This document shows positions 24,386 through 43,425 of a stretch of DNA of 64,000 bases, piece by piece. The position numbers were made by a program, and so were the translations under genes. How positions within the stretch are numbered: position 1 is the first letter of the stretch; each line of letters opens with the position of its first letter. This DNA comes from Burkholderiaceae bacterium (GTDB lineage Bacteria > Pseudomonadota > Gammaproteobacteria > Burkholderiales > Burkholderiaceae_E), in contig JAMLIR010000020.1 in the NCBI GenBank assembly GCA_023954045.1, forward strand, positions 1 to 64,000, in the 5' to 3' direction. The notes beneath the pieces are model-generated. The model worked only from the letters and a program-made list of their open reading frames with translations. It was not told where the DNA came from and made no database searches.

Positions 24386-24515
24386 CGTCGTCCCCAGCGT
24401 TCGTTGCGCGGATGGCAGCGGCCCCGTGGCGTTCCCGACCGCCCGGGCAGACGGTCGAGTTAACACGAAGGCCGGCCCGGTGGCAATGATCCAGCCCCTT
24501 CCCTCGGTCGATCCG

Positions 24516-24614
24516 TTGCATCGACAACCATTTTGGCCGGAAAAGGTGCACCAAAAAGGTGCGTTTGCGGTTGCCATTTTCGGCTAACGCCAAAACCCCG
24601 CCGAAACCTAGAAT
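24516..24614 (+). promoter_or_regulatory. Candidate AraC-controlled promoter region of aauB
   Basis: Two copies of AAAAGGTGC start 13 bases apart (24541-24549 and 24554-24562). They are flanked by a second repeated element, CCATTTT followed by GGC, at 24528-24534 and 24574-24580. A possible -10, TAGAAT (24609-24614), has no recognisable -35 at 16-18 bases, as expected of an activator-dependent promoter. AT-rich blocks here contrast with the surrounding GC. The regulator is most likely the divergent AraC protein. Confidence 0.45.
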
Positions 24615-24660
24615 CCCCGGGCAATCCGGCGAAGACCGGAACCCGACGAGGAGATCGAAC

Positions 24661-27499: not shown

Positions 27500-28864
27500 A
27501 TGAAGGGCTGGAAGAAACTGTCGGCAGCCGTCGCGCTTGCCGTCGCCTCGGCCTCCGCGGGCTCCGCGGTGGGCGAGCAGGAAGCCGCGAGACTGGGCAA
27601 GGACCTGACTCCGGTCGGCGCCGAGAAGGCCGGGAGCAAGGACGGGACGATTCCGGCCTGGGATGGCGGCATCACCAAGCCGCCGGCGGGATGGAAGCCG
27701 GGCGATCCGCGCGTCGATCCGTTCAAGGACGACAAGGTCCTGTTCTCGATCGACGCGTCGAACGTCGACAAGTACAAGGACAAGCTCTCCGAGGGCCAGC
27801 AGACGCTGATCCGCACGCTCAAGGGCTACCGGATGGACGTCTACCCGACGCGGCGCTCGTGCGGATATTCCGACGAGATCTACCAGAACAGCGCGAAGAA
27901 CGCCCGCGTGGCGCGACTGGCCGATGGGGGCTGGCAGCTCGAGAACGCGGTCGGCCGCGGCGTGCTGTTCCCGATCCCGAAGAATGGCGCCGAGGCGGTC
28001 TGGAACCACAAGCTGCGCTTCCAGGGCGAAGGGCGCATCGAGCACTACTCGTCGCTGTTCTCCAGCAAGAGCGGCAACTTCTCGCAACTGGCGCAGAACC
28101 AGTGGGTCGTCTATCCGCTGCACGAGACGTCGACCAGGAACTTCGACGACGTGAAGAAGTCGGAGGCCAAGATCCTGAACGAGGTCGTTGCGCCGGCCGC
28201 GCGCGCCGGCGAGATGATCCTGGTGCACTGGTTCCTGGACCGCGGCTCCGACGCCTGGCTGTACTTCCCGGGGCAGCGCCGGGTGCGCCGGGCCCCCTCG
28301 TTCGCCTACGACAACCCGGTGCCCGGCTACGAGAACCTCGAGACGGTCGACCAGTACCCGATGTACGCGGGCGCGATGGACCGGTACGACTGGAAGCTCG
28401 TCGGCAAGAAGGAGATGTACATCCCGTACAACAACTGGAAGCTGATCGACAAGAGCCGCAAGTACAAGGACATCTACCTTCCCGAATACGTCAACCGCGA
28501 CCTGATGCGCTACGAGCTGCACCGCGTCTGGGTCGTCGAGGCGACGCTCAAGGACGGAATGCGGCACATCTTCCCGCGCCGCGTGATGTACATCGACGAG
28601 GACAGCTGGACGCTGATCCTCACCGACCTGTACGACGCGCAGGGCAAGGTCTGGCGCGTCCAGGAGGCCAGCCTCTGGGTCGCACCCGAGATCCCGGCCT
28701 GCGTGAGCCAGGAATTCGTCGGCTACGACCTCAACGTCGGCCGCTACATCGCCGAGACGGCGACGCAGGAGCATCCGCCCACCGACTGGCTCGCCGGCCG
28801 CGAAGGGCGCATCAACCCGAACATGTTCAGCCCCGACGAGCTGCGCCGACGCGGCGAGCGCTGA
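27500..28864 (+). CDS. DUF1329 periplasmic protein (LolA-like fold expected)
   Basis: A 454-residue exported protein: signal peptide at 1-24, then the DUF1329 landmarks ARLGKDLTPVGAEKAGSKDG, IPAWDGGITKPP, DDKVLFSIDASNVDKY, FLDRGSDAWLYFPGQRRVRR and YVNRDLMRYELHRVWVVEA. DUF1329 proteins occur with DUF1302 outer-membrane proteins and RND permeases in clusters for hydrophobic compounds such as aromatics, steroids and long-chain molecules. They are thought to shuttle ligands in the periplasm. GGAG precedes the start and the gap to aauA is only 16 bases, so it is part of the amine transcript. Confidence 0.9.
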   Translation: MKGWKKLSAAVALAVASASAGSAVGEQEAARLGKDLTPVGAEKAGSKDGTIPAWDGGITKPPAGWKPGDPRVDPFKDDKVLFSIDASNVDKYKDKLSEGQQTLIRTLKGYRMDVYPTRRSCGYSDEIYQNSAKNARVARLADGGWQLENAVGRGVLFPIPKNGAEAVWNHKLRFQGEGRIEHYSSLFSSKSGNFSQLAQNQWVVYPLHETSTRNFDDVKKSEAKILNEVVAPAARAGEMILVHWFLDRGSDAWLYFPGQRRVRRAPSFAYDNPVPGYENLETVDQYPMYAGAMDRYDWKLVGKKEMYIPYNNWKLIDKSRKYKDIYLPEYVNRDLMRYELHRVWVVEATLKDGMRHIFPRRVMYIDEDSWTLILTDLYDAQGKVWRVQEASLWVAPEIPACVSQEFVGYDLNVGRYIAETATQEHPPTDWLAGREGRINPNMFSPDELRRRGER

Positions 28865-28945: not shown

Positions 28946-30778
28946 ATGACCAGCAGCATCAGCAGCACGGGGGTGGCGCGTGCGGTCGCGGGCGCACTCG
29001 CCCTCGTCGCCGCGGGCGCGATCGCCCCACCGGCGCACGCCTTCAAGTTCGGCAACGAAACGGTCTCTGGAAACTTCGATTCGACCATCTCGTTCGGGTT
29101 CATCAAGCGTCTGCAAGGCCCGAGTCGCAGCATCATCGGCAACGACAACGGCGGAAACGTGCCGACCACCAGCGAGCTGGAGTCGCGCATGAACGCCTTC
29201 TACGGCGGTGGCGCGATCGCGAACCCCGACTTCAACTTCCTGCAGGCCGACGACGGCAACCTGAACTACAAGAAGGGCGACATTGTTTCCGCGGCCCTCA
29301 AGGGCACGCACGAGCTGCTGCTGCACGGGCCGGGCGGCCTGAGCGGCATGCTGCGCGCGACCTGGTTCAAGGACTGGAAGACCGACGACACCGACCGCAC
29401 GCCGCTCGATCCCGCGTCGCGCGCGGTGGCGGTCGACAAGTGGACCTGGCTCGACGCGTGGGTGGCGAAGGAGTTCGAGATTGCGGGACGCCCGGCGAAG
29501 GTCAAGGTCGGCAACCAGGTGATCAGCTGGGGCGAGGACATCTTCATCTACGGCGGCGTCAACGTCACCAATGCGATCAACCTGCAGAACGCCCACGTAC
29601 CCGGCACGCAGTTGAAGGAGATCTTCAAGCCCGCACCGATGATCTCCCTCAACGCGAACATCGCCGAGGGCCTGAGCGTCGAGGGGTACTACCAGTTCCG
29701 CTGGAACGCGTTCACCTTCGACCCGGTGGGCACCTTCTTCTCGGTGACCGACGTGATCGGCAAGGGCGGGCGCAACGCGTTCATCAACTCCACGCTGCTC
29801 GGCCTGCCGCCCGGGACGGTCGGGGACATCGGCACGATCAACCCGACCACCGGCCAGCCGTTCACGCTCCCGGAACTGGCGGCGGGCACCGCGACGGTGC
29901 CGGTCGCCGGCGTCGCGTTGCCGACGCTCGTCTACCCGATGGCGACCAGGGAACCGAAGGACTCGGGCCAGTTCGGCCTCGCCACGCGCTGGCTGCCTGC
30001 CGACTCCGAGACCGAGTACGGCCTGTACTGGATCCGCTACCACGACAAGCTGCCCTTCGTCGGGTTCAACTTCGACCCCGGCCGCCACACGACCAACGTC
30101 GCCGGCCTGGCTTACTACGTCGACTACGGCGAGAGCCGCAACGTCTTCGGCCTCTCGGCGAACACGCGGGTCGGCACCTGGGCAGTCGGTGCCGAGCTTT
30201 CCTACCGACCCAAGGACAGCGTCGGCATCGACACGACGGTTCCCGCGAGCGGCAAGTACTCGGTGTTCGATTACGTGGGCAAGACCACCCGCGGCTTCGT
30301 CGAGGAGCGCAAGTGGCAGGCGCACCTGACCGGCTTCAAGCTGATGGCGCCGGCCGACCTCGGCGGCCTGATCGGCAAGCTCGGCGCCGAAGAGGGTTAC
30401 TTCCTCGGCGAGGTCGCGGTCGCGCACTACCCCGGGCTCGACCGCTCCGGCCGCATCCCGTACCTGCTCACCGACTACTCGCTTCCCGACCGGACCTCGG
30501 CCGGCATGGTGATCTCCACCGGGCTCACCTACGCGAACGTCGGCGACACCGGCTGGAACATGATGCCGCAGCTCGACGTCGCCTGGGACTTCCACGGCAC
30601 CTCGCCGAACGCGGTGCCGTTCGTGGAAGGCCGCAAGGCGGCGACGCTGTCGCTGAACTTCAACCGCTCGGACAAGTGGAAGGCCGGGATCGGCTACACC
30701 CGCTTCTGGGGCGGCGGCGGCAACAACCTGATGAGGGACCGCGACTTCCTGTCGGTGATCACCTCGGTGTCGTTCTGA
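28946..30778 (+). CDS. DUF1302 outer-membrane beta-barrel protein
   Basis: A 610-residue exported protein: signal peptide about 1-31 (ending PPAHA), then the DUF1302 start FKFGNETVSGNFDSTISFGF, followed by alternating aromatic beta-strand patterns to the C-terminal Phe (VITSVSF). A C-terminal phenylalanine is typical of Bam-assembled barrels. Diagnostic phrases are KVKVGNQVISWGEDIFIYGG and YWIRYHDKLPFVGFNF. The family forms putative channels for hydrophobic substrates and pairs with DUF1329. Preceded by AGGAGGAACGG about nine bases from the ATG. Stem-loops lie in the gaps on both sides. Confidence 0.9.
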   Translation: MTSSISSTGVARAVAGALALVAAGAIAPPAHAFKFGNETVSGNFDSTISFGFIKRLQGPSRSIIGNDNGGNVPTTSELESRMNAFYGGGAIANPDFNFLQADDGNLNYKKGDIVSAALKGTHELLLHGPGGLSGMLRATWFKDWKTDDTDRTPLDPASRAVAVDKWTWLDAWVAKEFEIAGRPAKVKVGNQVISWGEDIFIYGGVNVTNAINLQNAHVPGTQLKEIFKPAPMISLNANIAEGLSVEGYYQFRWNAFTFDPVGTFFSVTDVIGKGGRNAFINSTLLGLPPGTVGDIGTINPTTGQPFTLPELAAGTATVPVAGVALPTLVYPMATREPKDSGQFGLATRWLPADSETEYGLYWIRYHDKLPFVGFNFDPGRHTTNVAGLAYYVDYGESRNVFGLSANTRVGTWAVGAELSYRPKDSVGIDTTVPASGKYSVFDYVGKTTRGFVEERKWQAHLTGFKLMAPADLGGLIGKLGAEEGYFLGEVAVAHYPGLDRSGRIPYLLTDYSLPDRTSAGMVISTGLTYANVGDTGWNMMPQLDVAWDFHGTSPNAVPFVEGRKAATLSLNFNRSDKWKAGIGYTRFWGGGGNNLMRDRDFLSVITSVSF

Positions 30779-30872: not shown

Positions 30873-33233
30873 ATGATCGCGAACCTCGTCGACCGGCTCG
30901 AACGCCTGATCTTCGGCCATCGCGGCATCCTGCTCGCGTCGCTGGGGCTGCTCACCGTTGTCATGGCGCTGTTCGCGAGCCAGCTGCGCATGGACGCCGG
31001 CTTCGACAAGCAACTGCCCCAGCACCACGAATACGTCCGCACCTTCTTCCAGTACCGCGACCAGGTCTTCGGCGCAAACCGCGTGATCGTCGTGGTGCGC
31101 GCGCGCGACGGCGAGATCTGGAGTGCGCCCGGCCTGCGCCGGCTCTACGACGTCACGCAGTCGGTGATGTTCCTGCCGGGGATCGACCGGCGCACGGTCA
31201 CCTCGCTGTGGACCCCGAACACTCGGGTGCTCGGCGTGACCGAAGAGGGCTTCAAGGCCGAGGACGTGATCGGCGGCGACATCACGCCCGACCGGCTCGA
31301 CCCGGGCCGCATCGAGCGCATCCGCGCCAATGCGCTGGCGGGCGGCTACATCGGCACGCTGGTCTCCACCGACAACGCCGCCGCGATGGTCGTCGCCGAC
31401 CTTCTCGAGACCGACCCGGCCAGCGGCAAGCGGCTCGACTACCTCGACTTCGCGCGGCGCATCGAGGACGAGGTGCGCGGCCGGCACGAGGACGCGTCGT
31501 TCGAGGTGCAGATCATCGGCTTCGCCAAGCAGATCGGCGACATCGCCGACGGCGCGCGCAGCGTGGTCGAATTCTTCACGCTGGCGTTCGTGCTCACCGC
31601 GCTGTCGGTATGGCTGTACTGCCGGTCGGCCGCGCTCACCGCGATCACGCTGCTGTCCTCGCTGGTGTCGGTGGTCTGGCAGTTCGGCACGTTGAAGCTG
31701 CTCGGCTACGGGCTCGATCCGCTTGCAGTGCTGGTTCCGTTCCTGGTGTTCGCGATCGGCGTCTCGCACGGCGTCCAGCAGATCAACTTCGTCGTGAAGG
31801 GCGTTTGCGCCGGCGCCGACAGCACGACCGCGGCGCGGCGCGCGTTCAGCGGGCTGCTGGTGCCGGGCTCGATGGCGCTGGTGACCGCTTTCGTCGGCTT
31901 CGCCACGCTGACGCTGATCCCGATCCCGATGATTCGCGAGCTCGGCATCACCGCTTCGATCGGCGTGGCGTACAAGATCGTGACCAACCTGGTGATGCTG
32001 CCGGTCTGCGCCTCGTACCTGCGCTTCGACGACGCCTACGTCGCGCGGCTCACGCGGTTGCGCGCGGCGCGCGAGAAGGCGATGGCGGTCCTCGGGCGGG
32101 TCGCCGAGACGCGCAACGCGGCGATCGGCACGCTGGTCTGCGCGGCGCTGTTCGCGGTCGCGTTCGTGCAGAGCCAGGGCCGCCACGTCGGGCACCTCGC
32201 CTCGGGCGCACCCGAGCTGCGCCCCGATTCGCGCTACAACCTCGACGCGGCGTCGATCGTCGGCAGCTTCGACCTCGGCCTCGACGTGCTCACCGTGGTC
32301 TTCGAGACGCCGAAGGACGGCTGCTATCGGCTCGACGTGATGGCCCACGTCGACCAGTTCGCCTGGCAGATGCAGAACGTGCCGGGAGTGATCTCGGTCG
32401 CCTCGGTCGCGCAGCTCGCCAAGCAGGCCTATTCGGGCACCAACGAGGGCCACCCGAAGTGGACCGCGCTCGCGGCCGACGAGCGCTCGCTGGCGAACTC
32501 GGTGGGGCTGATCCCCGAGGGAACCGGGCTCTTCAACCCCGGCTGCACCGTGCTGCCGGTCAACGTCTACCTCACCGACCACAAGGCGTCGACGGTCAAG
32601 CAGGTCATCGCGGCGGTCCGCGAGTTCCGCGACAGCGAGAAGCTCGACGGCGTGAACCTGCGCCTCGCCAGCGGCAACGTGGGCGTGCAAGCGGCGACGA
32701 ACGAGGTGCTCGAGACCACCGAGCTGCCGATGATGCTCTGGGTCTACGCGACGATCGTCGCGCTGGTCTTCTTCACCTACCGCGACTGGCGGGCGATGAT
32801 CGCCTGCTGCCTGCCGCTCACGCTTGCCACCTTCCTGGGCTACTGGTTCATGAAGGCGCTCGACATCGGCCTGACGGTGGCCACGCTGCCGGTGATGGTG
32901 CTGGCGGTGGGCATCGGCGTCGACTATGCGTTCTACATCTACAACCGGCTGCAGCTGCACCTCTCCCAGGGCGCGGACATCGTGGTCGCGTTCAAGCAGG
33001 CGTTGATGGAGACCGGCAACGCGACGATCTTCACCGCGATCACGCTGTCGGTAGGGGTGGCCACCTGGTCGTTCTCCGACCTGAAGTTCCAGGCGGACAT
33101 GGGCATGCTGCTGACGTTCATGTTCATGGTGAACATGCTGATGGCGATCACGCTGCTGCCGGCGCTCGCAGTGATGATCGACGTGCTGGTTCCACGGCGG
33201 CGTCCGGTGCGCGCGCCGTTCCTCGTCCACTGA
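30873..33233 (+). CDS. RND/MMPL-family inner-membrane transporter
   Basis: A 786-residue permease of the hydrophobe/MMPL branch of the RND superfamily. Topology: helix at about 18-36, large periplasmic loop, helices II-VI (about 225-390, including VPFLVFAIGVSHGVQQINF), second loop (about 420-610) and helices VIII-XII (about 625-775, including MVLAVGIGVDYAFYIYNRLQ). The GVSHG and GVDYAFY motifs on helices IV and X are the proton-relay region of MMPL proteins. This type is regularly encoded beside DUF1302, DUF1329 and YCF48 proteins. The direction of transport (uptake of a hydrophobic amine or export of a product) is not known. Confidence 0.88.
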   Translation: MIANLVDRLERLIFGHRGILLASLGLLTVVMALFASQLRMDAGFDKQLPQHHEYVRTFFQYRDQVFGANRVIVVVRARDGEIWSAPGLRRLYDVTQSVMFLPGIDRRTVTSLWTPNTRVLGVTEEGFKAEDVIGGDITPDRLDPGRIERIRANALAGGYIGTLVSTDNAAAMVVADLLETDPASGKRLDYLDFARRIEDEVRGRHEDASFEVQIIGFAKQIGDIADGARSVVEFFTLAFVLTALSVWLYCRSAALTAITLLSSLVSVVWQFGTLKLLGYGLDPLAVLVPFLVFAIGVSHGVQQINFVVKGVCAGADSTTAARRAFSGLLVPGSMALVTAFVGFATLTLIPIPMIRELGITASIGVAYKIVTNLVMLPVCASYLRFDDAYVARLTRLRAAREKAMAVLGRVAETRNAAIGTLVCAALFAVAFVQSQGRHVGHLASGAPELRPDSRYNLDAASIVGSFDLGLDVLTVVFETPKDGCYRLDVMAHVDQFAWQMQNVPGVISVASVAQLAKQAYSGTNEGHPKWTALAADERSLANSVGLIPEGTGLFNPGCTVLPVNVYLTDHKASTVKQVIAAVREFRDSEKLDGVNLRLASGNVGVQAATNEVLETTELPMMLWVYATIVALVFFTYRDWRAMIACCLPLTLATFLGYWFMKALDIGLTVATLPVMVLAVGIGVDYAFYIYNRLQLHLSQGADIVVAFKQALMETGNATIFTAITLSVGVATWSFSDLKFQADMGMLLTFMFMVNMLMAITLLPALAVMIDVLVPRRRPVRAPFLVH

Positions 33234-33256: not shown

Positions 33257-33739
33257 ATGCTCGAACGCCTGATCGCCCGCCTCTCCGGCGAACCCGCCCC
33301 GCCGCCCGGCGACGACCCTGCCGCGCGACGCCGCCTCGCGGTGGCCGCGCTGCTGGTGGAGGCGGTGCGCGTCGACCGCCACGCCGACGCCGACGAGCGC
33401 GACGCGGTCGTGTCGCTGTTGCGCGAGCGCTTCGAGCTGCCCGACGACGAAGCCGAGCGCCTGGTCGAGCTGGCCGAGACACGCTTCGCGTCGGTGCTCG
33501 ACGACTGGATCTTCGCGCGCGCGGTCAGGCAAGGCTACGACCACGACGAGCGCGCCGAGATCCTCGGCATGCTCTGGGAGACGGTCTACAGCGACGGGCG
33601 GCTGGCCGCCTTCGAAATGGACCTGCTGCAGCGGCTGACCGGGGCGCTGGAAGTCGAGCCGGCCGCGGCCGAGGCGGCGCGCGCACGCGCGTTCGCGCGC
33701 ATCGGGCTGCGCGAGCCCGAAGGCGGAGCCGACGAATGA
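33257..33739 (+). CDS. TerB-like (tellurite resistance B family) cytoplasmic protein
   Basis: A 160-residue all-helical protein whose pattern ALLVEAVRVDRHADADERDA ... LGMLWETVYSDGRLAAFEMDL matches the TerB/DjlA-N acidic helical repeat fold, with Asp/Glu residues that may bind metal. No signal peptide. The function in this setting is unknown; stand-alone TerB-like proteins are often found beside membrane complexes. The stop overlaps the start of the YCF48 gene (ATGA), so it belongs to the same transcript. Confidence 0.75.
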   Translation: MLERLIARLSGEPAPPPGDDPAARRRLAVAALLVEAVRVDRHADADERDAVVSLLRERFELPDDEAERLVELAETRFASVLDDWIFARAVRQGYDHDERAEILGMLWETVYSDGRLAAFEMDLLQRLTGALEVEPAAAEAARARAFARIGLREPEGGADE

Positions 33740-34731
33740 ACCGGGGTGCGCGCAGGACGCTGCGGACGCTCGCGTCGATCGCCGCCTGCATGGCGGCCGC
33801 GCTGCAGGCGCCCGGCGCCGGCGCAGCCGACGCCGCCGCCAACCGCGCGCCCGCTGCCGGCGTCGCCCGCCAGCAGGCGCAGAAGGTGGCGCACCCGGAG
33901 CGCGCGCCGCTGATGGCCGCGACCCGGGCCGGCGCGCGCATCGTCGCGGTCGGCGACTTCGGCACGGTGCTGCTGTCCGACGACGAGGGCGCGAGCTGGC
34001 GGCAGGCGGCCGAGGTGCCGACGCGGGTGACGCTCACCGGGGTGCAGTTCCTCGACGCCGGGCGCGGCTGGGCGGTGGCGCACGGCGGGATCGTCCTCGC
34101 CACCGAAGACGGCGGCGAACACTGGCGCGTCGCGCACCGCGCCGGAGCGGGAACCTCGTTCTTCTCGGTGCACTTCGCCGACGCGAGGCGCGGACTGGTG
34201 GTGGGAGCCTTCGGCGCCGCGATCGCCACCGAGGACGGTGGCCGAACCTGGAACGAGGTCACCGTCGGCGAGGGCGAGTTCTCCGATCGCCACCTCTACC
34301 AGATCTTTGCCGATTCGAGCGGAACCACCTGGATCACCGCCGAGAGCGGCGTCGTCTACCGATCGACCGACGCGCGCACGTTCGCTCCGGTGGCCTTGCC
34401 GTATCGCGGCTCGATCTGGGGCGGCATGGCGCTACCCGACGGCGCGATCCTGGTCTGGGGCATGGGCGGGCACGTGCTGCGCAGCCAGGACGCCGGCGCA
34501 TCGTGGCGCGAGATCCCCAGCGGCACCGAGAACCCGCTGACCACGGGGTTGCTGCTGGGCAAGCGGCTCGTGCTCGCCGGACTCGGCGGGGCGGTGCTCG
34601 CCAGCGACGACCTCGGCGCGAGCTTTCGCGCCGAGATCCGCCCCGACCGGCTGTCCTACACCGCGGCGGTCGAAGCGGCCGGCGCGCCGCTGCTCACCAG
34701 TCTCTCCGGAATCGCCGCGACGCGCCACTGA
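33736..34731 (+). CDS. YCF48/BNR-repeat periplasmic beta-propeller protein
   Basis: A 331-residue exported protein with a signal peptide (about 1-30, ending AGAA). Repeated BNR-type blades follow: VLLSDDEGASWRQ, VLATEDGGEHWRV, AIATEDGGRTWNE, VYRSTDARTFAPV, VLRSQDAGASWRE and VLASDDLGASFRA, one every 40-48 residues. This is the YCF48/HCF136-like propeller usually encoded next to RND–DUF1302–DUF1329 sets. HCF136/YCF48 is a photosystem II assembly factor; here the propeller is probably an accessory to the transport module. Binding partner unknown. Confidence 0.88.
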   Translation: MNRGARRTLRTLASIAACMAAALQAPGAGAADAAANRAPAAGVARQQAQKVAHPERAPLMAATRAGARIVAVGDFGTVLLSDDEGASWRQAAEVPTRVTLTGVQFLDAGRGWAVAHGGIVLATEDGGEHWRVAHRAGAGTSFFSVHFADARRGLVVGAFGAAIATEDGGRTWNEVTVGEGEFSDRHLYQIFADSSGTTWITAESGVVYRSTDARTFAPVALPYRGSIWGGMALPDGAILVWGMGGHVLRSQDAGASWREIPSGTENPLTTGLLLGKRLVLAGLGGAVLASDDLGASFRAEIRPDRLSYTAAVEAAGAPLLTSLSGIAATRH

Positions 34732-34778: not shown

Positions 34779-36272
34779 ATGAACCAGTCCGTCCAGAGCC
34801 AGCAACCCGAACTCGCCGCGATCCGGCAGAAGATGTTCGTCGACGGCAAGTTCGTCGACGCGCGTTCCGGCAAGACGCTACCCGTCTTCAATCCGGCCAC
34901 CGGCGCCGAGATTGCCCGCGTGCCCGACGCCCAGGCCGAGGACGTCGACGCGGCCGTGCGCTCGGCGCGCGCGACCTTCGAGTCGGCGGCCTGGCAGGGC
35001 ATGCTGCCGGCCGAGCGCGAGCGGCTGCTGCTGAAGCTGGCCGACCTGATCGAGCAACACGGCGAGGAACTCGCCCGCCTCGAAACGCTGAACAACGGCA
35101 AGCTGCTGATGTTCTCGCGCATGCTCGAGGTGGGAGCCAACGCGCAATGGACGCGCTACATGGCCGGCTGGGCCACGAAGATCGAAGGCTCGACGCTCGA
35201 CGTGTCGATTCCGTTTCCGCCGGGCGTGCGCTACACCGCGATGACCCGCCGCGAGCCGGTCGGCGTCGTCGGCGCGATCGTGCCGTGGAACTTCCCGCTG
35301 CTGATGGCGATGTGGAAGATCGCGCCGGCGCTGGCGTGCGGCTGCACGGTGGTGCTCAAGCCGGCCGAGGAGACGCCGCTCACCGCGCTGCGCCTGGCCG
35401 AACTGGCGATGGAGGCGGGTTTCCCGGCAGGCGCGGTCAACGTGGTCACCGGCTACGGCGAAAGCGCGGGCGCAGCGCTGGTGCGCCATCCGGGCGTCAA
35501 CAAGATCGCCTTCACCGGCTCGACCGAGGTCGGCAAGATCATCGGCCGCAGTTGCATGGACGACATGAAGCGCGTCTCGCTCGAGCTGGGTGGCAAGAGC
35601 CCGGTGATCGTGCTCGACGACTGCGATCCCGCGGTCGCGGTCGCGGGCGCGGCCGGCGCGATCTTCTTCAACCACGGCCAGGTCTGCACCGCGGGCTCCC
35701 GACTGTTCGTGCACAAGAGCCGCTACGACCAGGTCCTCGCCGGGCTCGCGTCCGCGGCCGAGTCGACGAAGCTCGGCGACGGTTTCGACGAGACCGCGCA
35801 GATGGGCCCGATGGTGTCGGCGACGCATCGCGACCGCGTGGTGCGCTACATCGAGTCGGGCAAGGCCGAAGGGGCCGAGCTGCTCGCCGGCGGCCAGGCG
35901 CAGCCCGGATCGGGCTACTTCGTGCGGCCTACCGTGTTCTCGAACACCACCGGCAAGGACCTCACGATCTCGCGCGAGGAGATCTTCGGGCCGGTGGTCG
36001 TGGCCACGCCCTTCGACGACCTCGACGACGTGGCGCGCAAGGCCAACGACAGCCGCTACGGACTGGGCGCCAGCATCTGGACCAACAACCTGACGCAGGC
36101 CTACCGGCTGATCCCGAAAGTGCAGGCCGGCACCGTCTGGCTGAACTGCCACAACATGGTCGACCCGAACCTTCCGTTCGGCGGCTACAAGGACTCCGGC
36201 GTCGGGCGCGAGCACGGCCGGGCGATGATCGACGTCTACACGGAGACGAAGTCGGTGTGCGTGGCCTATTGA
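34779..36272 (+). CDS. NAD-dependent aldehyde dehydrogenase (phenylacetaldehyde dehydrogenase-like)
   Basis: A 497-residue ALDH that would oxidise the aldehyde formed by the amine dehydrogenase. Landmarks: VPWNFPLLMAMWKIAPALAC, the NAD glycine motif FTGSTEVGK, the general base Glu in LELGGKSP, and the catalytic Cys in NHGQVCTAGSR. EEIFGPVVVATPF and PFGGYKDSGVGREHG are in place. The sequence is of the FeaB/StyD phenylacetaldehyde dehydrogenase type, cytoplasmic with no leader. Very strong ribosome site GGAGGAGAGG. The stop overlaps the TTG start of the small cytochrome gene. Aldehyde specificity is inferred from context. Confidence 0.92.
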   Translation: MNQSVQSQQPELAAIRQKMFVDGKFVDARSGKTLPVFNPATGAEIARVPDAQAEDVDAAVRSARATFESAAWQGMLPAERERLLLKLADLIEQHGEELARLETLNNGKLLMFSRMLEVGANAQWTRYMAGWATKIEGSTLDVSIPFPPGVRYTAMTRREPVGVVGAIVPWNFPLLMAMWKIAPALACGCTVVLKPAEETPLTALRLAELAMEAGFPAGAVNVVTGYGESAGAALVRHPGVNKIAFTGSTEVGKIIGRSCMDDMKRVSLELGGKSPVIVLDDCDPAVAVAGAAGAIFFNHGQVCTAGSRLFVHKSRYDQVLAGLASAAESTKLGDGFDETAQMGPMVSATHRDRVVRYIESGKAEGAELLAGGQAQPGSGYFVRPTVFSNTTGKDLTISREEIFGPVVVATPFDDLDDVARKANDSRYGLGASIWTNNLTQAYRLIPKVQAGTVWLNCHNMVDPNLPFGGYKDSGVGREHGRAMIDVYTETKSVCVAY

Positions 36273-36640
36273 GTTCGGGCAGGCTCGCGGCCGGGCTGCT
36301 GGCGGCCGGGCTGCTCCACGGCGGCGCGGCGGCGGCCGCGCCGCCCGCAGTCGCATCGGCGCCGCAGAACGCGGCGACGCTGTACGCACTGAACTGCATG
36401 GGTTGCCATCCGCCGCCGCGCACGCCCGTCGCGGACCCCGGGCCCCTGCGCGGCGAGTTCTATCTGAACGCGCGCGGCCGCAACTTCTACATCCGCGTGC
36501 CGCAGGACGGCAAGCGCGTGCTCGGCCCCGACGAGGAAGCGCGGCTGCTCGACGAGATCATGACCTGGAAGCGCAGTTGCGCGGTGATCCTGCAGGAGGC
36601 GCCCCAGGTGAACTACAGCGGCGAGCGCTTCGTCAAATGA
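36269..36640 (+). CDS. Small periplasmic monohaem cytochrome c
   Basis: A 123-residue precursor with signal peptide (about 1-24, Ala-rich) and one haem site, Cys43-Met-Gly-Cys-His47, followed by PPPRTPVADPGPLRGEFYLN. The remainder lacks an obvious Met ligand motif; a single further Cys occurs in WKRSCAV. The start is a TTG overlapping the ALDH stop (ATTGA), the only start that gives a leader. It is the natural candidate to take electrons from the TTQ enzyme or to serve the two diheme proteins. No azurin or amicyanin gene is seen in the window. Confidence 0.75.
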   Translation: MSSGRLAAGLLAAGLLHGGAAAAAPPAVASAPQNAATLYALNCMGCHPPPRTPVADPGPLRGEFYLNARGRNFYIRVPQDGKRVLGPDEEARLLDEIMTWKRSCAVILQEAPQVNYSGERFVK

Positions 36641-37803
36641 GTGCACGTGCGCTGCTTCGGGTCGTCGGCGCGGCGCTGCCTTCCGCGCTGCGCTTCGTGC
36701 CGCACACCGTGCTGGTCTTCGGGCTGCTCGCGGCGACGCCCGCACCCACGCCCGCGGCGACCCCTGCCGCGGCGCCCGCGCGCGCAGCCGATCGCGTCTT
36801 GCCGCCACCGTCGCCGGCAGCCGGCGCAGCGCTGCTCGAGCTCGGCCGCCACCTGTTCTTCGAGTCGCGCCTGTCCGGCGACGGCAGCCGCAGCTGCGCG
36901 AGCTGCCACGCGCCGGCGCGCGCCTTCTCGGAGGGCGCCGCGCTGTCACGCGGCTACAACCACACCGGGCACTTCCGCAACGCGCCCGGCCTGCTCGGCC
37001 TGCGGCTGAAGGAGCGACTCGGCTGGGACGGGCGCTACCGCATCGACGAGCTGCCGAAGCTGGTCGAGGAGATGCTGACCTCGCCGATCACGATGAACGG
37101 CAACCCGGGCATCATCGCGGAGCGCGTGCGCCAGGTGCCCCAGCTGCTGCAGTTGTGGCAGCGGGCGTTCGGCGAACGCACGCAGCCCTCGTTCGAAGGC
37201 GCGGCGCGCGCGATCGCCGCCTGGTCGGCCGCGCACGACGGCAGCGACACCGCGGTCGACGCGGCGCTGCGCGGCGACGCGTCGGCGCTGTCGCCGCGGG
37301 CCGCCGAGGGCCTGCGGCTGTTCACCGGCAAGGCGGGCTGCTCGCGCTGTCATTCCGGACCGGCGTTCTCCGACGGCCTGGCGCACCGGCTGGGCGTCCC
37401 CGAATCGCCGCAGATCCTGCGCGATCCGGAGCGCACGGTCGCGCTGCTGGCCCATCACGCGAGCCACGGCTCGGCCGACCCGATGAGCGAGCGCAGCGAC
37501 ACCGGCGTGCACGCGCTGACCCGCAGGGCCGCCGACCGGGGCCGCTTCTTCACGCCCGGCCTGCGTGGCGTGGCGCAGACCGCCCCGTACATGCACAACG
37601 GTACCCTGCCCGATCTCGCGGCCGTCGTCGCGTTCTACGACCGCGGCGGCGGCCGCGGCTCCGAGACGAAGCCGCTGGGCCTGTCCGCGGGCGAGCGCGA
37701 AGCGCTGGTGGCGTTTCTCGAGGCGCTGACGCCGCGCGCCCCGGTCGCCGTGGCGCCGCCGCCCGCCTTCGACTACGCCACGCAGGCGGGAGCCGGGCGA
37801 TGA
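36637..37803 (+). CDS. MauG/cytochrome c peroxidase-family diheme protein, first copy
   Basis: A 388-residue exported diheme protein: signal peptide about 1-51, haem 1 at Cys87-His91 (CASCH) and haem 2 at Cys235-His239 (CSRCH), with the family phrases RHLFFESRLSGDGSRSCASC, LRLFTGKAGCSRCHSGPAFS and RGVAQTAPYMHNGTLPDL. In methylamine dehydrogenase systems MauG completes TTQ by a six-electron oxidation of the precursor, using H2O2 or O2. A MauG homologue in a TTQ locus probably does the same. It overlaps both neighbours by four bases. Whether the distal ligand is Tyr (MauG) or Met (peroxidase) needs an alignment. Confidence 0.88.
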   Translation: MSARALLRVVGAALPSALRFVPHTVLVFGLLAATPAPTPAATPAAAPARAADRVLPPPSPAAGAALLELGRHLFFESRLSGDGSRSCASCHAPARAFSEGAALSRGYNHTGHFRNAPGLLGLRLKERLGWDGRYRIDELPKLVEEMLTSPITMNGNPGIIAERVRQVPQLLQLWQRAFGERTQPSFEGAARAIAAWSAAHDGSDTAVDAALRGDASALSPRAAEGLRLFTGKAGCSRCHSGPAFSDGLAHRLGVPESPQILRDPERTVALLAHHASHGSADPMSERSDTGVHALTRRAADRGRFFTPGLRGVAQTAPYMHNGTLPDLAAVVAFYDRGGGRGSETKPLGLSAGEREALVAFLEALTPRAPVAVAPPPAFDYATQAGAGR

Positions 37804-39002
37804 AGATCCGGCTCGTGACGGGCGTGCTGCTCGCGCTCGCCGCGAGCGCCGCGGTCGCCGTCGCCGCCCTGTCGGCCGCGCGCACCCCGACGCCGGATTC
37901 GGGCGGCCCGGTGCCTGCGCTTGCACTACTGCCGCCGGTCCCGGTGCCGGCCGACAACCCGATGAGCGCTGCCAAGGTCGAGCTCGGGCGGCGGCTGTTC
38001 TTCGATGCGCGCCTGTCGGGCGACACCTCGACCTCGTGCGCGTCGTGCCACGTCGCGCAGATGGGCTGGACGCACGACGACGCGCTCGCCCCCGGCTATC
38101 CGGGCCACCGGCTGTGGCGCAACAACCCGACGGTGCTCAACGCTGCGCATTTCCGCCGGCTGATGTGGGACGGCAGCCTCGACCGGCTCGAGGTCCAGGC
38201 GCGCTCGGCGATGCAGGCGCCGGTCGAGGGCAACGGCAACGCGGCGATCGTCGAAATGCGGCTGCGTCTGGTGCCCGAGTACGTCGACCGCTTCCGCGAG
38301 GCGTTCGGCACCGAGTGGCCGAAGCTCGACGATGCCTGGCGGGCGATCGCGGCCTTCGAGCGCACCGTGGTCTCCGATCCGCGCAAGGTGCCGTTCGACC
38401 GGTTCCTGGCCGGCGATGCGAAGGCGCTGACCGCCGCGGCGCAGCGCGGCTACGCGCTGTTCACCGGCAAGGCGGGCTGCATCGCCTGCCACCACGGCCC
38501 GCTCGCGAGCGACGAGGGCTATCACGCGCTCGGCGTCCCGCGCCAGTCGCTGTACGACTCCAGCGCGCTGGTGCAGGTCGCGGTGCGCTGGCAGAACGCC
38601 CAGCGCGATGCGCCGCGCGCGCTGTACCGTGGCGCCGAGGAAGACCTCGGCCGTTACTACCGCACCCGCGATCCGGCCGACATCGGCAAGTTCCGCACGC
38701 CGTCGCTGCGCGAACTGCGCTACACCGCCCCCTACATGCACAACGGCGTGTTCCGCACGCTGCAGGAGGTGGTCGACTTCTTCGATCGCGGCGGCGGCGA
38801 CGCGCCCAACAAGTCGCCGCTGCTGCGCCCGCTCGGGCTCACCGGCGACGAGAAGCGCGACCTGGTCGCCTTCCTCGAATCGATGAGCATGGACGAGCCG
38901 CTGCTCATGGCCGCGCCCGAGCTGCCGCCGATGCAGCCGCTGGTCGAGGACACCGCAGGCAGCTGCAGCACGCACGACGCACCGGGAGGAGGGGCGGGAT
39001 GA
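37800..39002 (+). CDS. MauG/cytochrome c peroxidase-family diheme protein, second copy
   Basis: A 400-residue paralogue of the preceding gene: signal peptide about 1-24, haem sites Cys80-His84 (CASCH) and Cys227-His231 (CIACH). It shares ELGRRLFFDARLSGD, YALFTGKAGCIACHHG and LRYTAPYMHNGVFRTL, but has a different middle and a C-terminal tail with a Cys-x-x-His (SCSTHD). The copies are clearly diverged, so they may act on different substrates or as a heteromeric pair. The ATG overlaps the previous stop and its own stop overlaps the start of the NorB-like gene, showing tight coupling across this block. Confidence 0.88.
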   Translation: MKIRLVTGVLLALAASAAVAVAALSAARTPTPDSGGPVPALALLPPVPVPADNPMSAAKVELGRRLFFDARLSGDTSTSCASCHVAQMGWTHDDALAPGYPGHRLWRNNPTVLNAAHFRRLMWDGSLDRLEVQARSAMQAPVEGNGNAAIVEMRLRLVPEYVDRFREAFGTEWPKLDDAWRAIAAFERTVVSDPRKVPFDRFLAGDAKALTAAAQRGYALFTGKAGCIACHHGPLASDEGYHALGVPRQSLYDSSALVQVAVRWQNAQRDAPRALYRGAEEDLGRYYRTRDPADIGKFRTPSLRELRYTAPYMHNGVFRTLQEVVDFFDRGGGDAPNKSPLLRPLGLTGDEKRDLVAFLESMSMDEPLLMAAPELPPMQPLVEDTAGSCSTHDAPGGGAG

Positions 39003-41344
39003 CGAACGCCGGCAGGCTCTGGAACCGGTTCGTGATGAACCCCCGCGGCTGGTGGCTGCCGCTGCTCGCGGTGCTCGCGATCGGCGTGGGCAGCATGTTG
39101 TACATGGGCACGCGCACCTACCTCGATGCGCCGCCGGTGCCCGACTTCGTCGACGAGCGCGGCGTCGCGGTGGTCCCCGCGGCGGCGATCACGCGCGGGC
39201 AGGCGGTGTTCCTGAAGTACGGGCTGATGAACTACGGCAGCATGTTCGGCGACGGCGCCGGCCGCGGCCCGGACTTCACCGCCGACGCGCTGCACCAGGT
39301 GGCGCGCGCGATACGCGACCATCACGCGTCCGCCGACGGCGTCGACGCCGATTCGGCGCTCGCCGCCGCGCAGCGCGAGATCAAGCGCAATCGCCACGAT
39401 GCGGCCACCGGCACGGTCACCGTCGGCCCCGCGCAGGCCTATGCCGCGCGCGAGATCGAGCGCCGCGTCGCAGCGATGTTCCGCGGCGAGGGCAGCGAAG
39501 CCTTCCACCCCGCCGGCTTCATCGCCGACGAGGCCGAACTGCGCGACCTCGCGGCGTTCTTCTTCTGGGGCGCATGGGTCTGCGGGGTCGAGCGGCCCGG
39601 CAAGGCCTACACCTACACGCACAACTGGCCGTACGACGAGCTGGCGGGCAACCGGCCGAGCGCGCAGGTCATGCTGTGGAGCGTGATCGCGGTGCTCGCG
39701 CTCGTAGCCGCGCTCGGCGCGGTGCTGTTCCTTTACGGCCGATACGCGTCGATCGCCGGATGGCGTCCCGCGCAGCGCGGCGACGCGTTCCCGCAGGCGG
39801 GGACGATGGCCGGCGCAGCGGCGGTCGATGCGCTGCGTCCCGGCGCGCTGCAGCGCGCAACCTACAAGTTCTTCGCCGCCGCCGCGGTGCTGTTCGTGCT
39901 GCAGGTCGCCGCCGGCATCCTGACCGTGCACGACTTCCTCGGCATCACCCGCGTGTTCGGCGTCGATCTCGCGCAGGCGCTGCCGATTCCGGTGGTCCGC
40001 GGCTGGCACCTGCAGCTCGCGCTGCTGTGGATCACCGCCTGCTGGGTCGGCGCGTCGATCTTCGTCGTCTCGACGGCCGCGCCGCGGGCACCGGCCGGAC
40101 AGTTGCGGCTGGTCGAGCGGCTGTTCGGCCTGTTCGTCTTCACCGCGGTCGGCGGGCTGGCCGGCGTGGCGCTCGGGCCGCACGGACTGCTCGGCGACTG
40201 GTGGCACCTGCTCGGCAGCCAGGGCTGGGAGTTCGTCGAGCAGGGCAGGCTCTGGCAGGCGCTGCTGTTCGCGGTGTTCGCGCTGTGGTGCGTGGTGCTC
40301 GCGCGCGCGGTCCGGCCGATCTGGCACTCGGGCGATGCGTGGATGCTGCCGAAGTGGCTGCTCTACTGCGTCGCCTGCGTGCTGGTGCTGTTCGTCTCCG
40401 GGTTCGTCGCGACGCCGCAGACCAACTTCGTGGTCGCCGATTTCTGGCGCTGGGCGGTGATCCACATGTGGGTCGAGGCGTTCTTCGAAGTCTTCACCAC
40501 CGCGGTGCTCGCGTACTTCATGGTGCTGATGGGACTGGTGAGCCACGCCGCGGCCTCGCGCATCGTCTATCTCGCCGCGCTGCTGTTCCTGGGCTCGGGC
40601 CTGCTCGGCATCTCGCACAACTTCTACTGGAACGCCAAGCCGGTCGAGACGCTGGCGATCGGCAGCGTTTTTTCGACGCTGCAGGTCGTGCCGCTGATCC
40701 TGCTCACGCTCGAAGCCTGGCAGTTCCGCAACGCGCCGCAGCGCGCGGGCGCCGCCGGCGGCTTCGGCCAGTCGGAGGCGTTCCTGTTCCTGCTCGGCGT
40801 GAATTTCTGGAACTTCCTGGGCGCCGGCATGTTCGGCTTCATGATCAACCTGCCGATCGTCAACTACTACGAGCACGGCACCTACCTGACCGTGAACCAC
40901 GGCCACGCCGCGCTGATGGGCGTCTACGGCAACCTGGCGATCGCGACGATCGTCTTCTGCGCGCGCTGCCTGGTCGAGCCGGCCCGCTGGAACGCCGCAC
41001 TGCTGCGCCGCGCGTTCTGGTCGCTCAACGTCGGGCTGCTGCTGATGGTGGCCGCCGACCTGTTTCCGGTGGGCATCGCGCAGCTGCTCGACGTGCTCGA
41101 AAACGGCTTCTGGCACGCGCGCTCGCAGGCGTTCATCGGCAGCGAACTGTTCCAGGCGCTCACCTGGGCGCGCATCGTCGGCGGCGCGCTGTTCGTGCTG
41201 GGCGGCGTGCTGCCGCTGGCCTGGTTCGTCGTGACCCGCGCCGCCGCGCTGAAGGCGCCCCTCCCAGAGCCAGCCGAGGACGAAGCGACCCGCACTGCGC
41301 CTGGAGCGGCCGCGCTGCCGTTGCCCGAGAGCCCGCGCGCCTGA
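38999..41344 (+). CDS. Putative nitric oxide dismutase (NorB/qNOR homologue with altered active site)
   Basis: A 781-residue haem-copper-superfamily protein of quinol-NO-reductase layout: N-terminal helix, periplasmic cytochrome-like domain without CXXCH, then 12 or more helices. Retained: His489, Glu493 and Glu497 (HMWVEAFFE) and His540, which align with His508, Glu512, Glu516 and His559 of Geobacillus qNOR at a constant offset of 19. Changed: the third FeB ligand His560 is Asn541 (SHNFYW) and Glu581 is Gln562 (STLQ). The quinol-site motif near His328/Glu332 reads His311-D-F-L-Gly315. As I recall, these changes mark nitric oxide dismutase (2 NO to N2 + O2) described from Methylomirabilis. 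It is the last gene of the amine run. A divergent NO reductase is the alternative. Confidence 0.8.
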   Translation: MTNAGRLWNRFVMNPRGWWLPLLAVLAIGVGSMLYMGTRTYLDAPPVPDFVDERGVAVVPAAAITRGQAVFLKYGLMNYGSMFGDGAGRGPDFTADALHQVARAIRDHHASADGVDADSALAAAQREIKRNRHDAATGTVTVGPAQAYAAREIERRVAAMFRGEGSEAFHPAGFIADEAELRDLAAFFFWGAWVCGVERPGKAYTYTHNWPYDELAGNRPSAQVMLWSVIAVLALVAALGAVLFLYGRYASIAGWRPAQRGDAFPQAGTMAGAAAVDALRPGALQRATYKFFAAAAVLFVLQVAAGILTVHDFLGITRVFGVDLAQALPIPVVRGWHLQLALLWITACWVGASIFVVSTAAPRAPAGQLRLVERLFGLFVFTAVGGLAGVALGPHGLLGDWWHLLGSQGWEFVEQGRLWQALLFAVFALWCVVLARAVRPIWHSGDAWMLPKWLLYCVACVLVLFVSGFVATPQTNFVVADFWRWAVIHMWVEAFFEVFTTAVLAYFMVLMGLVSHAAASRIVYLAALLFLGSGLLGISHNFYWNAKPVETLAIGSVFSTLQVVPLILLTLEAWQFRNAPQRAGAAGGFGQSEAFLFLLGVNFWNFLGAGMFGFMINLPIVNYYEHGTYLTVNHGHAALMGVYGNLAIATIVFCARCLVEPARWNAALLRRAFWSLNVGLLLMVAADLFPVGIAQLLDVLENGFWHARSQAFIGSELFQALTWARIVGGALFVLGGVLPLAWFVVTRAAALKAPLPEPAEDEATRTAPGAAALPLPESPRA

Positions 41345-41356
41345 AGCCTGCGGCGC

Positions 41357-42715
41357 TCAGGCGCCGCAGCTGACGAGCGCCGCCTCGAGCGCGTCGACGA
41401 TCAGGTCGATTTCCGGCCGCTGGATCACCAGCGGCGGCGACAGGATCAGGTTGCCGCCGGAGACGCGGACCATCGCGCCGTTGCGGAAGGTCTGCGCGGC
41501 CACCGCCGCGGGCAGCGCCGCCTTGCGGTCGAGCGGCGTGCGCTTCTCCTTGTCGGCCACCAGCTCGACGCAGGCCATCAGCCCGATGCCGCGCACGTTG
41601 CCCACGGCGCGGAACTTCTGCTCGAGCGGCTTCAGCCGCGACATCAGGTACTCGCCCTGCACGCGCGCGTTCTCCGGCACGTTCTCGCGCTCGACGATGT
41701 CGAGCGCCGCGAGCGCCGACGCGCAGGCCACCGGATGGCCGCTGTAGGTGTAGCCGTGCATGATCGCGCCGCTGCCGGTCTGGTCGCCGAGGAACGCGTC
41801 GGCGACGCGGGTCGAGACCGCGGTCGCGCCCAGCGGCACGTAGCCCGAATTGATGCCCTTGGCCAGGCACATGATGTCGGGCTGCACGCCCCAGAGCCGC
41901 GCGCCGAACATCGAGCCGGTGCGGCCGAAGCCGGTCACCACCTCGTCGGCGATCAGCAGCACGCCGTGCGCGTCGCAGACCTTGCGCACCAGCGGCCAGA
42001 AGTTCGGCGGCGGCACGATCACGCCGCCGGCGCCCTGCACCGGCTCGGCGATGAACGCCGCGACCGTGTCCGGGCCCTGGAAGCGGATCTCGCGGTCGAG
42101 CAGCTCGGCGCAGATCTCGCCGAGCCGCTGCGGGTCGTCGGTGTACGGGTTGCGGTAGTCCCACGGCGTGTCGATGTGGAAGCACCCCGGGAGCAGCGGC
42201 TCGTAGGCGCGCCGGAACGCGGTGTTGCCGTTCACCGACATGCCGCCGAAGTGCACGCCGTGGTAACCCTGCTTCAGCGCGATGAACTTGTGGCGGTCGG
42301 CCTGGCCCTCGAGCTTCCAGTACTGGCGCGCGATCTTCAGCGCGCCCTCCACCGCGTCGGAGCCGCCGCTGGAGAACGCGACGCGCGCCATGCCCTCCGG
42401 CTGAAGCATCCCGACCAGCCGCACCGACAGCTCGATCGCGCGCGGATGCGTGGTGCCGCGAAAGCACGAATAGAACGCCAGCTCGTCGAGCTGGTCGGCG
42501 ATCGCCCGCTTGATCTCCTCGCGCCCGTAGCCGAGGTTGATGTTCCACAGGCCACCCACGCCGTCGACCACGCGATGACCGTCGACGTCGGTGATCCAGA
42601 CGCCGTCGCCGCGGGCCACGATGATCGGGGGCTGTTCCTGCATCTGGCGCGGGTGCGCCATCGGGTGCAGCATGAAGCGCGCGTTGTGCGCGCGCAGCGC
42701 GTCCGGGCCGGTCAT
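41357..42715 (-). CDS. Class III PLP aminotransferase (omega-aminotransferase / phospho-lyase family)
   Basis: A 452-residue fold-type I PLP enzyme. Visible: DGVWITDVDGHRVVDGVGGL, AFSSGGSDAVEGALKIARQY, the PLP-binding LLIADEVVTGFGRTGSMFG, the Schiff-base Lys in CLAKGINSGYVPLGA, and MHGYTYSGHPVACASALAAL. The class includes omega-amino acid:pyruvate transaminases, taurine-pyruvate transaminases and the amino-alcohol-phosphate phospho-lyases. Here it ends an operon with a phosphotransferase pair and a HAD protein, so a phosphorylated amine substrate is possible. The start ATG overlaps the HAD stop by four bases. Specificity cannot be decided from sequence alone. Confidence 0.9.
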   Translation of the reverse strand: MTGPDALRAHNARFMLHPMAHPRQMQEQPPIIVARGDGVWITDVDGHRVVDGVGGLWNINLGYGREEIKRAIADQLDELAFYSCFRGTTHPRAIELSVRLVGMLQPEGMARVAFSSGGSDAVEGALKIARQYWKLEGQADRHKFIALKQGYHGVHFGGMSVNGNTAFRRAYEPLLPGCFHIDTPWDYRNPYTDDPQRLGEICAELLDREIRFQGPDTVAAFIAEPVQGAGGVIVPPPNFWPLVRKVCDAHGVLLIADEVVTGFGRTGSMFGARLWGVQPDIMCLAKGINSGYVPLGATAVSTRVADAFLGDQTGSGAIMHGYTYSGHPVACASALAALDIVERENVPENARVQGEYLMSRLKPLEQKFRAVGNVRGIGLMACVELVADKEKRTPLDRKAALPAAVAAQTFRNGAMVRVSGGNLILSPPLVIQRPEIDLIVDALEAALVSCGA

Positions 42716-43425
42716 GAGGATTCTCCGGGAGCGAAGCGGTCGATGCCGAGCCGGGCGCGCACGCGTGCGAAGCTGCCTTCGGGGTCGGCGAGGTCGAAGT
42801 AGATCGCGTCCATGCCCACCGCGCGCGCCCCCTCGACGTTGCGCGGCTGGTCGTCGACGAACAGCGCGCGCGCCGCGGGCACGCCGAGTGCCTCGAGCGC
42901 TGCACGGTAGGCGCGCGGATCGGGCTTGAGCACGCCGGTGTGCGTGGCGTCGACCAGCACGTCGATCTCGCGCAGCAGCGCGAGCCGATCCATGAACGGC
43001 CGGCCCCAGAAGAGCTCGAGCTCGTTCGAGACGATGCCCACCCGAAGGCCCGCGGCGCGCGCTGCCGCGATCGTGCGCCGCGCGCATTCGCGCACCGCCC
43101 GGTTCGGGTCGTCGCCGCGGATCGCCTTGAAGAAGTCGAGCGGCGTCCACGCGTCGTGGCCGAGCATGCGGCCGACCTCGGCCGCGCGCTGCGCCCAGTA
43201 GTCGCGCTCGCTGATCGCACCGGCGGCCATGCTGCGCCACAGCGGATCGGTGGCCGGATCGACCGGCCCGAGCCAGCCGAGCGTGCCGGGCGCCAGGCCG
43301 AGGATCGTCTCGATCTCGCGCTGCCGCTCGAAGGCCGAGATCGTGATCACGCTGCCGAAGTCGAGCAGCAGTGCGTCGAACAGGCGCTCTTCGACCCGAT
43401 GGGCGCGCGCTTCGGGGGCGTTCAT
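42712..43425 (-). CDS. HAD-superfamily hydrolase
   Basis: A 237-residue HAD protein. Motif I is LLLDFGSVIT, with nucleophile Asp but Gly at the +2 position, as in YihX- and sEH-like HADs. Motif II is IVSNELE, motif III includes GVLKPDPRAYRAAL, and motif IV is VDDQPRNVEGARAVG. The alpha-helical cap lies between I and II. It could dephosphorylate a metabolite made by the upstream dikinase-like pair. It is translationally coupled on both sides by 4-base overlaps, so it is integral to this operon. Confidence 0.85.
   Translation of the reverse strand: MNAPEARAHRVEERLFDALLLDFGSVITISAFERQREIETILGLAPGTLGWLGPVDPATDPLWRSMAAGAISERDYWAQRAAEVGRMLGHDAWTPLDFFKAIRGDDPNRAVRECARRTIAAARAAGLRVGIVSNELELFWGRPFMDRLALLREIDVLVDATHTGVLKPDPRAYRAALEALGVPAARALFVDDQPRNVEGARAVGMDAIYFDLADPEGSFARVRARLGIDRFAPGESS

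Follow-up and report, generated by a model that had tools for sequence, protein, structure and literature searches.

A nitric oxide dismutase-family gene at the end of an aromatic amine dehydrogenase island in a Burkholderiaceae bacterium

A 64,000-nucleotide stretch of DNA, hereafter the window, was analysed, which comprises positions 1 to 64,000 (forward strand) of contig JAMLIR010000020.1 from the Burkholderiaceae bacterium assembly GCA_023954045.1. At positions 38999–41344 (+), it carries a gene of the nitric oxide dismutase (NOD) type, hereafter nod, which consists of a single, intact open frame encoding 781 residues. The gene is the last of a tightly packed island, in which everything from the genes of an aromatic amine dehydrogenase through nod lies on one strand, and its start overlaps the stop of the preceding gene, the second of two encoding di-heme peroxidases. 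We read it as a member of the NOD family, and the chances appear slightly better than even that its product is a nitric oxide (NO) dismutase serving the aromatic amine island.

In the Pfam scan, the protein matched COX1 (E 2.3e-43) and NorB_cytochrome_c-like (E 5.9e-40), consistent with the fold of quinol-dependent NO reductases (qNOR), and no NCBIfam model matched at E 0.001. Its nearest solved structure was Geobacillus qNOR (Protein Data Bank code 3ayf; E 1.3e-142). In the alignment to this structure, His489, Glu493, Glu497, His540, Asn541 and Gln562 lie opposite His508, Glu512, Glu516, His559, His560 and Glu581 at a constant offset of 19, with Asn541 and Gln562 replacing the last two. The quinol site aligned at an offset of 17, which pairs His311 with His328 (kept), Gly315 with Glu332, Val319 with Phe336 and Gly729 with Asp746. 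A preliminary description of this DNA, made from the sequence alone, had named the kept residues, both replacements and the offset of 19, all of which the alignment reproduced. It was also right that the HDFLG motif has lost its glutamate (Gly315), to which we add that the histidine of the quinol site is kept; the equivalent of Asp746, which it had left to be checked, proved to be lost. Putative NODs were described by Ettwig et al. (2012; PMC3413370) as having an asparagine for a metal-site histidine, a glutamine for a nearby glutamate and an unfit quinol site. Of the NOD traits, the window protein possesses His560→Asn, Glu581→Gln, Glu332→Gly, Asp746→Gly and Phe336→Val, and it lacks the replacement of His328. 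It contains no CxxCH heme c motif. The degenerate DNA signature had a single match in the window, compared with 0.00 on average over 100 shuffles, and the ratio of nonsynonymous to synonymous substitution rates (dN/dS) of nod was 0.10–0.31 across the five genus-member pairs for which it was calculated, which indicates purifying selection.

For comparison across the family, the search pattern HN-x-Y-[FYW] ... LQ retrieved at least 115 stretches in named genomes, with NOD-like frames in 114 of 115 (L115 being the other). As the pattern itself demands Asn560 and Gln581, their constancy is no evidence. The resulting NOD set had 122 rows, including eight loci of the source organism's genus, with three rows being second copies of genus loci (L093, L116 and L141), and the comparison set had 55 other rows, namely qNOR, a few of the cytochrome-dependent type (cNOR) and one nod fragment (L009). 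The Asp746 column held glycine or alanine in all 115 lettered NOD rows (7 of the 122 were gapped) and aspartate in 48 of the 52 lettered others. The Glu332 column held glutamate in none of the 91 lettered NOD rows (31 gapped), versus 47 of 54 lettered other rows. His328 was retained in 53/112 lettered NOD rows and Phe336 in 42/113, so neither of these columns defines the NOD clade. The NOD rows fell into an NAKP group (91 rows, including the window protein), an I/G-KP group (30 rows) and one other, and threonine was the commonest residue at position 328 of the I/G-KP group (14/30). In PMC10286720, His328 and Glu332 are reported as threonine and arginine in 55 of its 88 sequences. The window protein thus shares with the family Asn at His560, Gln at Glu581, the loss of Glu332 and Asp746, and a qNOR fold without heme c, but differs in having kept His328, unlike the threonine common in the other NOD group, and in having amine genes rather than methane monooxygenase as neighbours.

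A tree was computed from 66 hand-picked rows (45 with the NOD signature, 20 qNOR and one cNOR) by a quick search without bootstrap. Its anchors by name were Muricauda sp. and Algoriphagus. As carriers of nod, PMC10264387 names Algoriphagus and PMC3413370 names Methylomirabilis, HdN1 and Muricauda ruestringensis, and neither Methylomirabilis nor HdN1 was among the rows. All 45 NOD-signature rows, the window protein included, lay on one side of a single branch with an SH-like approximate likelihood ratio (SH-aLRT) support of 100, and the Muricauda sp. and Algoriphagus rows sat inside this clade. The same split was recovered in a 65-row tree, likewise from a quick search without bootstrap, from which the catalytic and quinol-site columns had been removed. 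The nearest rows outside the genus were Polaromonas sp. nzgw554 and Sulfuritalea sp., at approximately 72%. The residues and the tree together uphold the NOD-family assignment of the preliminary description, and the placement that it had named as contrary, inside a quinol- or cytochrome-dependent reductase clade, did not occur against the 20 qNOR and one cNOR rows of a tree that has no eNOR, bNOR, sNOR, gNOR or nNOR rows. Membership of the qNORs was rejected, as the His–His metal ligands, Glu581, Glu332 and Asp746 are all gone and the protein was placed outside the qNOR rows. A cNOR was likewise rejected, given that the heme c motif is absent and the flanking genes encode a di-heme peroxidase and an aminotransferase, with no NorC partner beside nod. 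We are therefore almost certain, as far as sequence can tell, that the gene is a genuine member of the NOD family.

Beyond these rows, the DNA pattern found zero matches among viral contigs. On plasmids, 318 records matched nod, all below 60% identity, and the 15 matches listed were at 37–39%, thus qNOR-like. When 398 genomes sampled from the phylum were searched, with two candidates scored per genome, the best match besides the source genome was at 39%. Two side observations concern other carriers: in a Deltaproteobacteria contig (L062), about 2.5 kb separate two nod-type motifs, the second of which lies in a short frame in the stretch at hand, and NOD-signature genes occur in Melainabacteria/Obscuribacterales, which are cyanobacterial kin (L121, L140 and L151), at about 55–59% identity to the window protein.

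The island that ends in nod is headed by a divergent gene for an AraC-type regulator (23384–24577, −; domain scan), and all its further genes are on the plus strand. The large subunit of the aromatic amine dehydrogenase (24559–25812, start uncertain; PF06433, E 8.7e-43) matched the aromatic amine dehydrogenase 2h3x of the Protein Data Bank (E 2.6e-88, versus 6.6e-34 for methylamine dehydrogenase) and is thus closer to the former enzyme. It is followed by an AauE/MauE-like protein (25812–26330), which has no NCBIfam match and was named only from its position and conservation, the order being kept in relatives, and by an AauD/MauD accessory protein (26360–26959, start set by eye; TIGR02661, 201.6 bits, cut-off 188.6). 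The small subunit, which would carry the tryptophan tryptophylquinone (TTQ) cofactor, is encoded at 26956–27483 and scored 172.6 bits with TIGR02659, below the cut-off of 196.85. Its Trp101 and Trp152 are 51 positions apart, the same spacing as that of the TTQ tryptophan pairs that we take to be 57/108 in methylamine dehydrogenase and 109/160 in aromatic amine dehydrogenase. Downstream lie genes for a DUF1329 protein (27500–28864), a DUF1302 protein (28946–30778) and an MMPL/RND transporter (30873–33233), all three recognised by the domain scan, a Ycf48-like beta-propeller (33736–34731; PF14870, E 2.7e-15) and a phenylacetaldehyde dehydrogenase of the StyD type (34779–36272, start set by eye; NF045735, 902.6 bits, cut-off 850). 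Two di-heme peroxidases of the CCP_MauG family, CCP1 (36637–37803, start set by eye) and CCP2 (37800–39002), complete the series before nod. The amine-oxidation run noted upstream of nod in the preliminary description is hence real, with aromatic amine dehydrogenase and aldehyde dehydrogenase genes identified in it. The known aau operon has the order large subunit, E, D and small TTQ subunit. The window island shares this order but differs in ending in the peroxidases and nod, both of which are absent, in the stretches at hand, from 18 of 19 amine dehydrogenase loci without nod.

Among 18 genomes of the genus, nod was present in nine and the amine dehydrogenase large subunit in the same nine (Fisher p 4e-5); kinship is uncorrected in this and the other co-occurrence tests within the genus, and several of the genomes are incomplete. 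Amine genes, peroxidase pair and nod were found together, with their order kept, in eight of the nine nod genomes, including the source genome. A chimeric assembly was rejected as the origin of the arrangement, which recurs in these eight genomes, in one of them on a 3.7-Mb contig. The aldehyde dehydrogenase was present in six of the eight linked islands and was not found in the stretches of G011 and G017. Outside the genus, a short contig of Polaromonas sp. carries the pair, nod and an aldehyde dehydrogenase fragment (41%), and the amine genes of this organism lie on a different contig. In Sulfuritalea sp., the amine genes are divergent from the aldehyde dehydrogenase (37%), the pair and nod, so that linkage is kept and order changed. 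A nod–amine linkage in G494 (Rhodocyclales) was not counted, with the amine genes on contig C94 and nod on C11. Across Burkholderiales, the large subunit was found at E 1e-40 in 21 of 399 genomes, the source genome included; none of the 20 others had a NOD-level match, and six had weaker qNOR or cNOR matches. Conversely, 56 distinct nod genomes outside the genus, which cover 57 of the at least 115 named loci, were searched for the large subunit, which was matched in eight, three of them at 48% identity or more. Within the at least 115 named stretches, each of at most 8 kb, the peroxidase pair adjoins nod only in L088, L116, L141 and L143, two of which are genus members, which marks the arrangement as a trait of a single branch in the NOD tree.

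The peroxidase pair was compared with its kin. At the axial position, CCP2 has phenylalanine, where MauG and BthA have tyrosine, in all nine copies read, and CCP1 has tyrosine in seven of nine and histidine in the other two. MauG identity was rejected for both window proteins because of their TIGR03791 scores (CCP1, 151.7 bits; CCP2, 212.6 bits; cut-off 443.85) and because axial tyrosine is found in CCP1 only; according to the BthA study (PMC6405878), tyrosine ligation alone is insufficient to make a MauG. MbnH identity was also rejected, as TIGR04039, the best NCBIfam match of both, scored 163.8 and 214 bits against a cut-off of 362.85. The best plasmid matches were pairs of Azonexus hydrophilus, Thiothrix subterranea and Vibrio sp. 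THAF190c. In Azonexus, the pair is followed by genes annotated as the small and large subunits of arsenate reductase (azurin), and in Thiothrix by the small subunit, where the record ends; the Vibrio record is unannotated, and both subunits were found in its DNA. Within Burkholderiales, the amine island of genome G594, the exception among the 19 loci without nod, has the same pair followed by a Rieske protein and a molybdopterin protein of the iodate-reductase/arsenite-oxidase type, at the place where the window has nod. Its large molybdenum subunit is 58% identical to the Azonexus and 44% to the Vibrio counterpart, and both subunits score below the arsenite oxidase cut-offs, the large one on a cut stretch. 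The G594 contig, C34 (L234/L276), comes from another family of Burkholderiales, and that genome gave no NOR-family match with the nod query.

In the peroxidase tree, which has several long branches and a midpoint root, two clades (support 99/97 and 96/95) each contained one window gene and one gene from each of the Azonexus, Thiothrix, Vibrio and G594 pairs, with the MauG row outside both. By this sequence comparison, the window pair is orthologous one-to-one to the pair beside iodate-reductase-type genes. In the literature on iodate reductase clusters, idr neighbourhoods are reported to carry both peroxidases, for which peroxide removal was proposed, and aio neighbourhoods are not (PMC8692401), and the cluster order is given as P2-P1-B-A (PMC10989891). 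Both window peroxidases thus resemble idrP1/P2 in grouping with a pair that precedes Rieske and molybdenum genes; in contrast to those clusters, nod stands in the window where the molybdenum enzyme would be, IdrAB is absent beside the pair, and the clusters compared here are of the iodate-reductase type by their genes alone. The position that nod takes is thus that of an enzyme type believed to be a source of oxidants, and the kinship of the pair suggests that its partner here may also generate oxidant.

We propose that the heme b3/metal site of the protein would rearrange NO supplied by the organism's own nitrite reductase, two molecules at a time, into N2 and O2, as expected from knowledge of the family. 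With its quinol site damaged, the enzyme would do so without taking up electrons from outside. In favour of this, the source genome (97% complete) has a nirS-family Cytochrom_D1 match (511.5 bits), read as cd1 nitrite reductase, and the nod query matched nothing else of the NOR family in it. Copper nitrite reductase exceeded the cut-off in none of the 18 genus members. Other NOR-family matches were found in three of the nine nod genomes of the genus versus eight of the nine nod-less ones (Fisher p 0.0498), so nod tends to stand in for a NOR. The two di-heme peroxidases, presumably periplasmic, would handle oxidants arising beside nod, as their kin suggest, and the O2 or peroxide may meet the oxygen demand of aromatic amine use under anoxia, whether for building the TTQ cofactor or for subsequent oxygenation of the ring. 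Taken by itself, the function of the window protein as a dismutase has about an even chance of being correct. A more general version is doubtful, in which nod and the pair make up one variant of an oxidant module with exchangeable parts, the same pair accompanying an iodate-reductase-type enzyme in one aromatic amine island and nod in others: either partner would yield O2 or peroxide in the anoxic cell, and MauG-family di-heme enzymes would use this oxidant to finish TTQ. Were it true, an oxygen-requiring TTQ cofactor could be built in anoxia.

Several observations weigh against a dismutase that serves the island. The quinol-site histidine is retained. No oxygenase was found among the island genes scanned, a scan that did not extend to phenylacetate and ring-oxygenase genes elsewhere in the genome. 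Among the 19 nod-less amine dehydrogenase loci, from which G577 (37%) was excluded and five of which are represented by less than 20 kb, the 18 without the pair suggest that neither nod nor the pair is needed for TTQ in general. The peroxidase of the next plasmid match, in Rhodobacteraceae S2214, stands alone, with no such molybdenum gene in the stretch shown. In genome G002, nod lies apart from the amine genes, and the large subunit, only 40% alike, is on another contig. Nod-like sequences have also been noted in foraminifera that made N2O (PMC6636425). Finally, nosZ is present in all nine nod genomes of the genus versus five of the nine others (Fisher p 0.08), for which an N2O-making enzyme is the simpler explanation.

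Such an enzyme, an NO reductase fed by a periplasmic carrier rather than quinol, with NosZ finishing denitrification, we regard as rather unlikely. Amine dehydrogenases feed periplasmic electron carriers, and the dehydrogenase of the island could be the source of the reduced carrier. The source genome has a nosZ propeller domain, and six of the nine nod genomes, all of which carry nosZ, gave no other NOR-family match. The NOR distribution fits nod as an NO sink; that of nosZ is explained by N2O as the product no less well than by a dismutase in a cell that retains nosZ for N2O from outside. Glu512 and Glu516 are kept, as a reductase would have them, but one metal histidine and Glu581 are lost, with Glu332 and Asp746 lost across the clade; there is no heme c motif to accept electrons, and the adjacent peroxidase pair points to oxidants.

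That nod is a passenger, travelling with the amine island without a functional tie, appears improbable. It would account for the nod of G002, which has no island next to it, and for the other neighbours that nod has in other lineages, and the co-occurrence in the genus may reflect few events. Against this stand the overlap of the nod start with the CCP2 stop, the gene order kept in eight of nine nod genomes, a linkage that survives rearrangement in Sulfuritalea and the purifying selection on nod. Least probable is NO detoxification by other chemistry, without a physiological O2 supply, for which the NO- and oxidative-stress regulators listed near several nod genes in PMC13386854, and there taken as possibly suggesting detoxification, would speak, but the regulator at the island head is of the AraC type and lies beside amine genes, and the scan of the island genes brought up none for NO stress.

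The dismutase reading can be set beside that same report (PMC13386854, June 2026), which covers 66 nod-bearing metagenome-assembled genomes, almost two-thirds of them from Pseudomonadota. It describes nod in Burkholderiales beside two cytochrome c peroxidase genes and mauABED, says that it identified no clear oxygen-consuming system, and treats the purpose of NOD-derived oxygen outside methane oxidation as an open question. The view in the preliminary description that a nod gene in a betaproteobacterial amine catabolic cluster had not been described therefore fails. In both neighbourhoods, nod is accompanied by a pair of cytochrome c peroxidase genes and by the genes of an amine dehydrogenase; they differ in that the window dehydrogenase is of the aromatic type, with the phenylacetaldehyde dehydrogenase, the DUF1329 and DUF1302 proteins and the RND transporter between. 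A word search of the main text of that report gave no instance of "aromatic amine", "iodate", "MauG" or "tryptophylquinone". Among the matches listed from open-licence PMC full texts, supplements and subscription papers not being included, none linked nod to aromatic amine dehydrogenase by name, to iodate-reductase-type peroxidases beside it or to TTQ formation; PMC10989891 mentions one Methylomirabilis genome with nod and idr genes, on different contigs. Within the reach of those searches, the kinship of the pair with iodate-reductase-type peroxidases and the swap in G594 are new, and the nod–amine neighbourhood was already known in kind. The conserved island of nod, peroxidases and amine dehydrogenase, together with the G594 swap, narrows the question to whether NO-derived oxygen goes into TTQ formation or peroxide handling. 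Denitrifiers with nosZ in addition to a NOD offer a clean setting for deciding between O2 and N2O as what these enzymes release.

Some further features of the loci were recorded. In G002, nod (L183) lies beside a divergent AraC gene, itself next to a sigma-54 activator, with no amine island. In the G005 locus (L181), the large subunit, the DUF1302 protein and the second peroxidase are each split into two frames, for which assembly read errors are our guess. A class III aminotransferase gene (window positions 41357–43240, −) is convergent with nod and adjoins it in L180–L182 at 95% identity. A SLAC1-type anion channel gene (51480–52541, −) lies about 10 kb from nod in the window, about 4 kb from it in a Thermoanaerobaculia contig (L082) and about 1.3 kb from it in an Obscuribacterales contig (L140).

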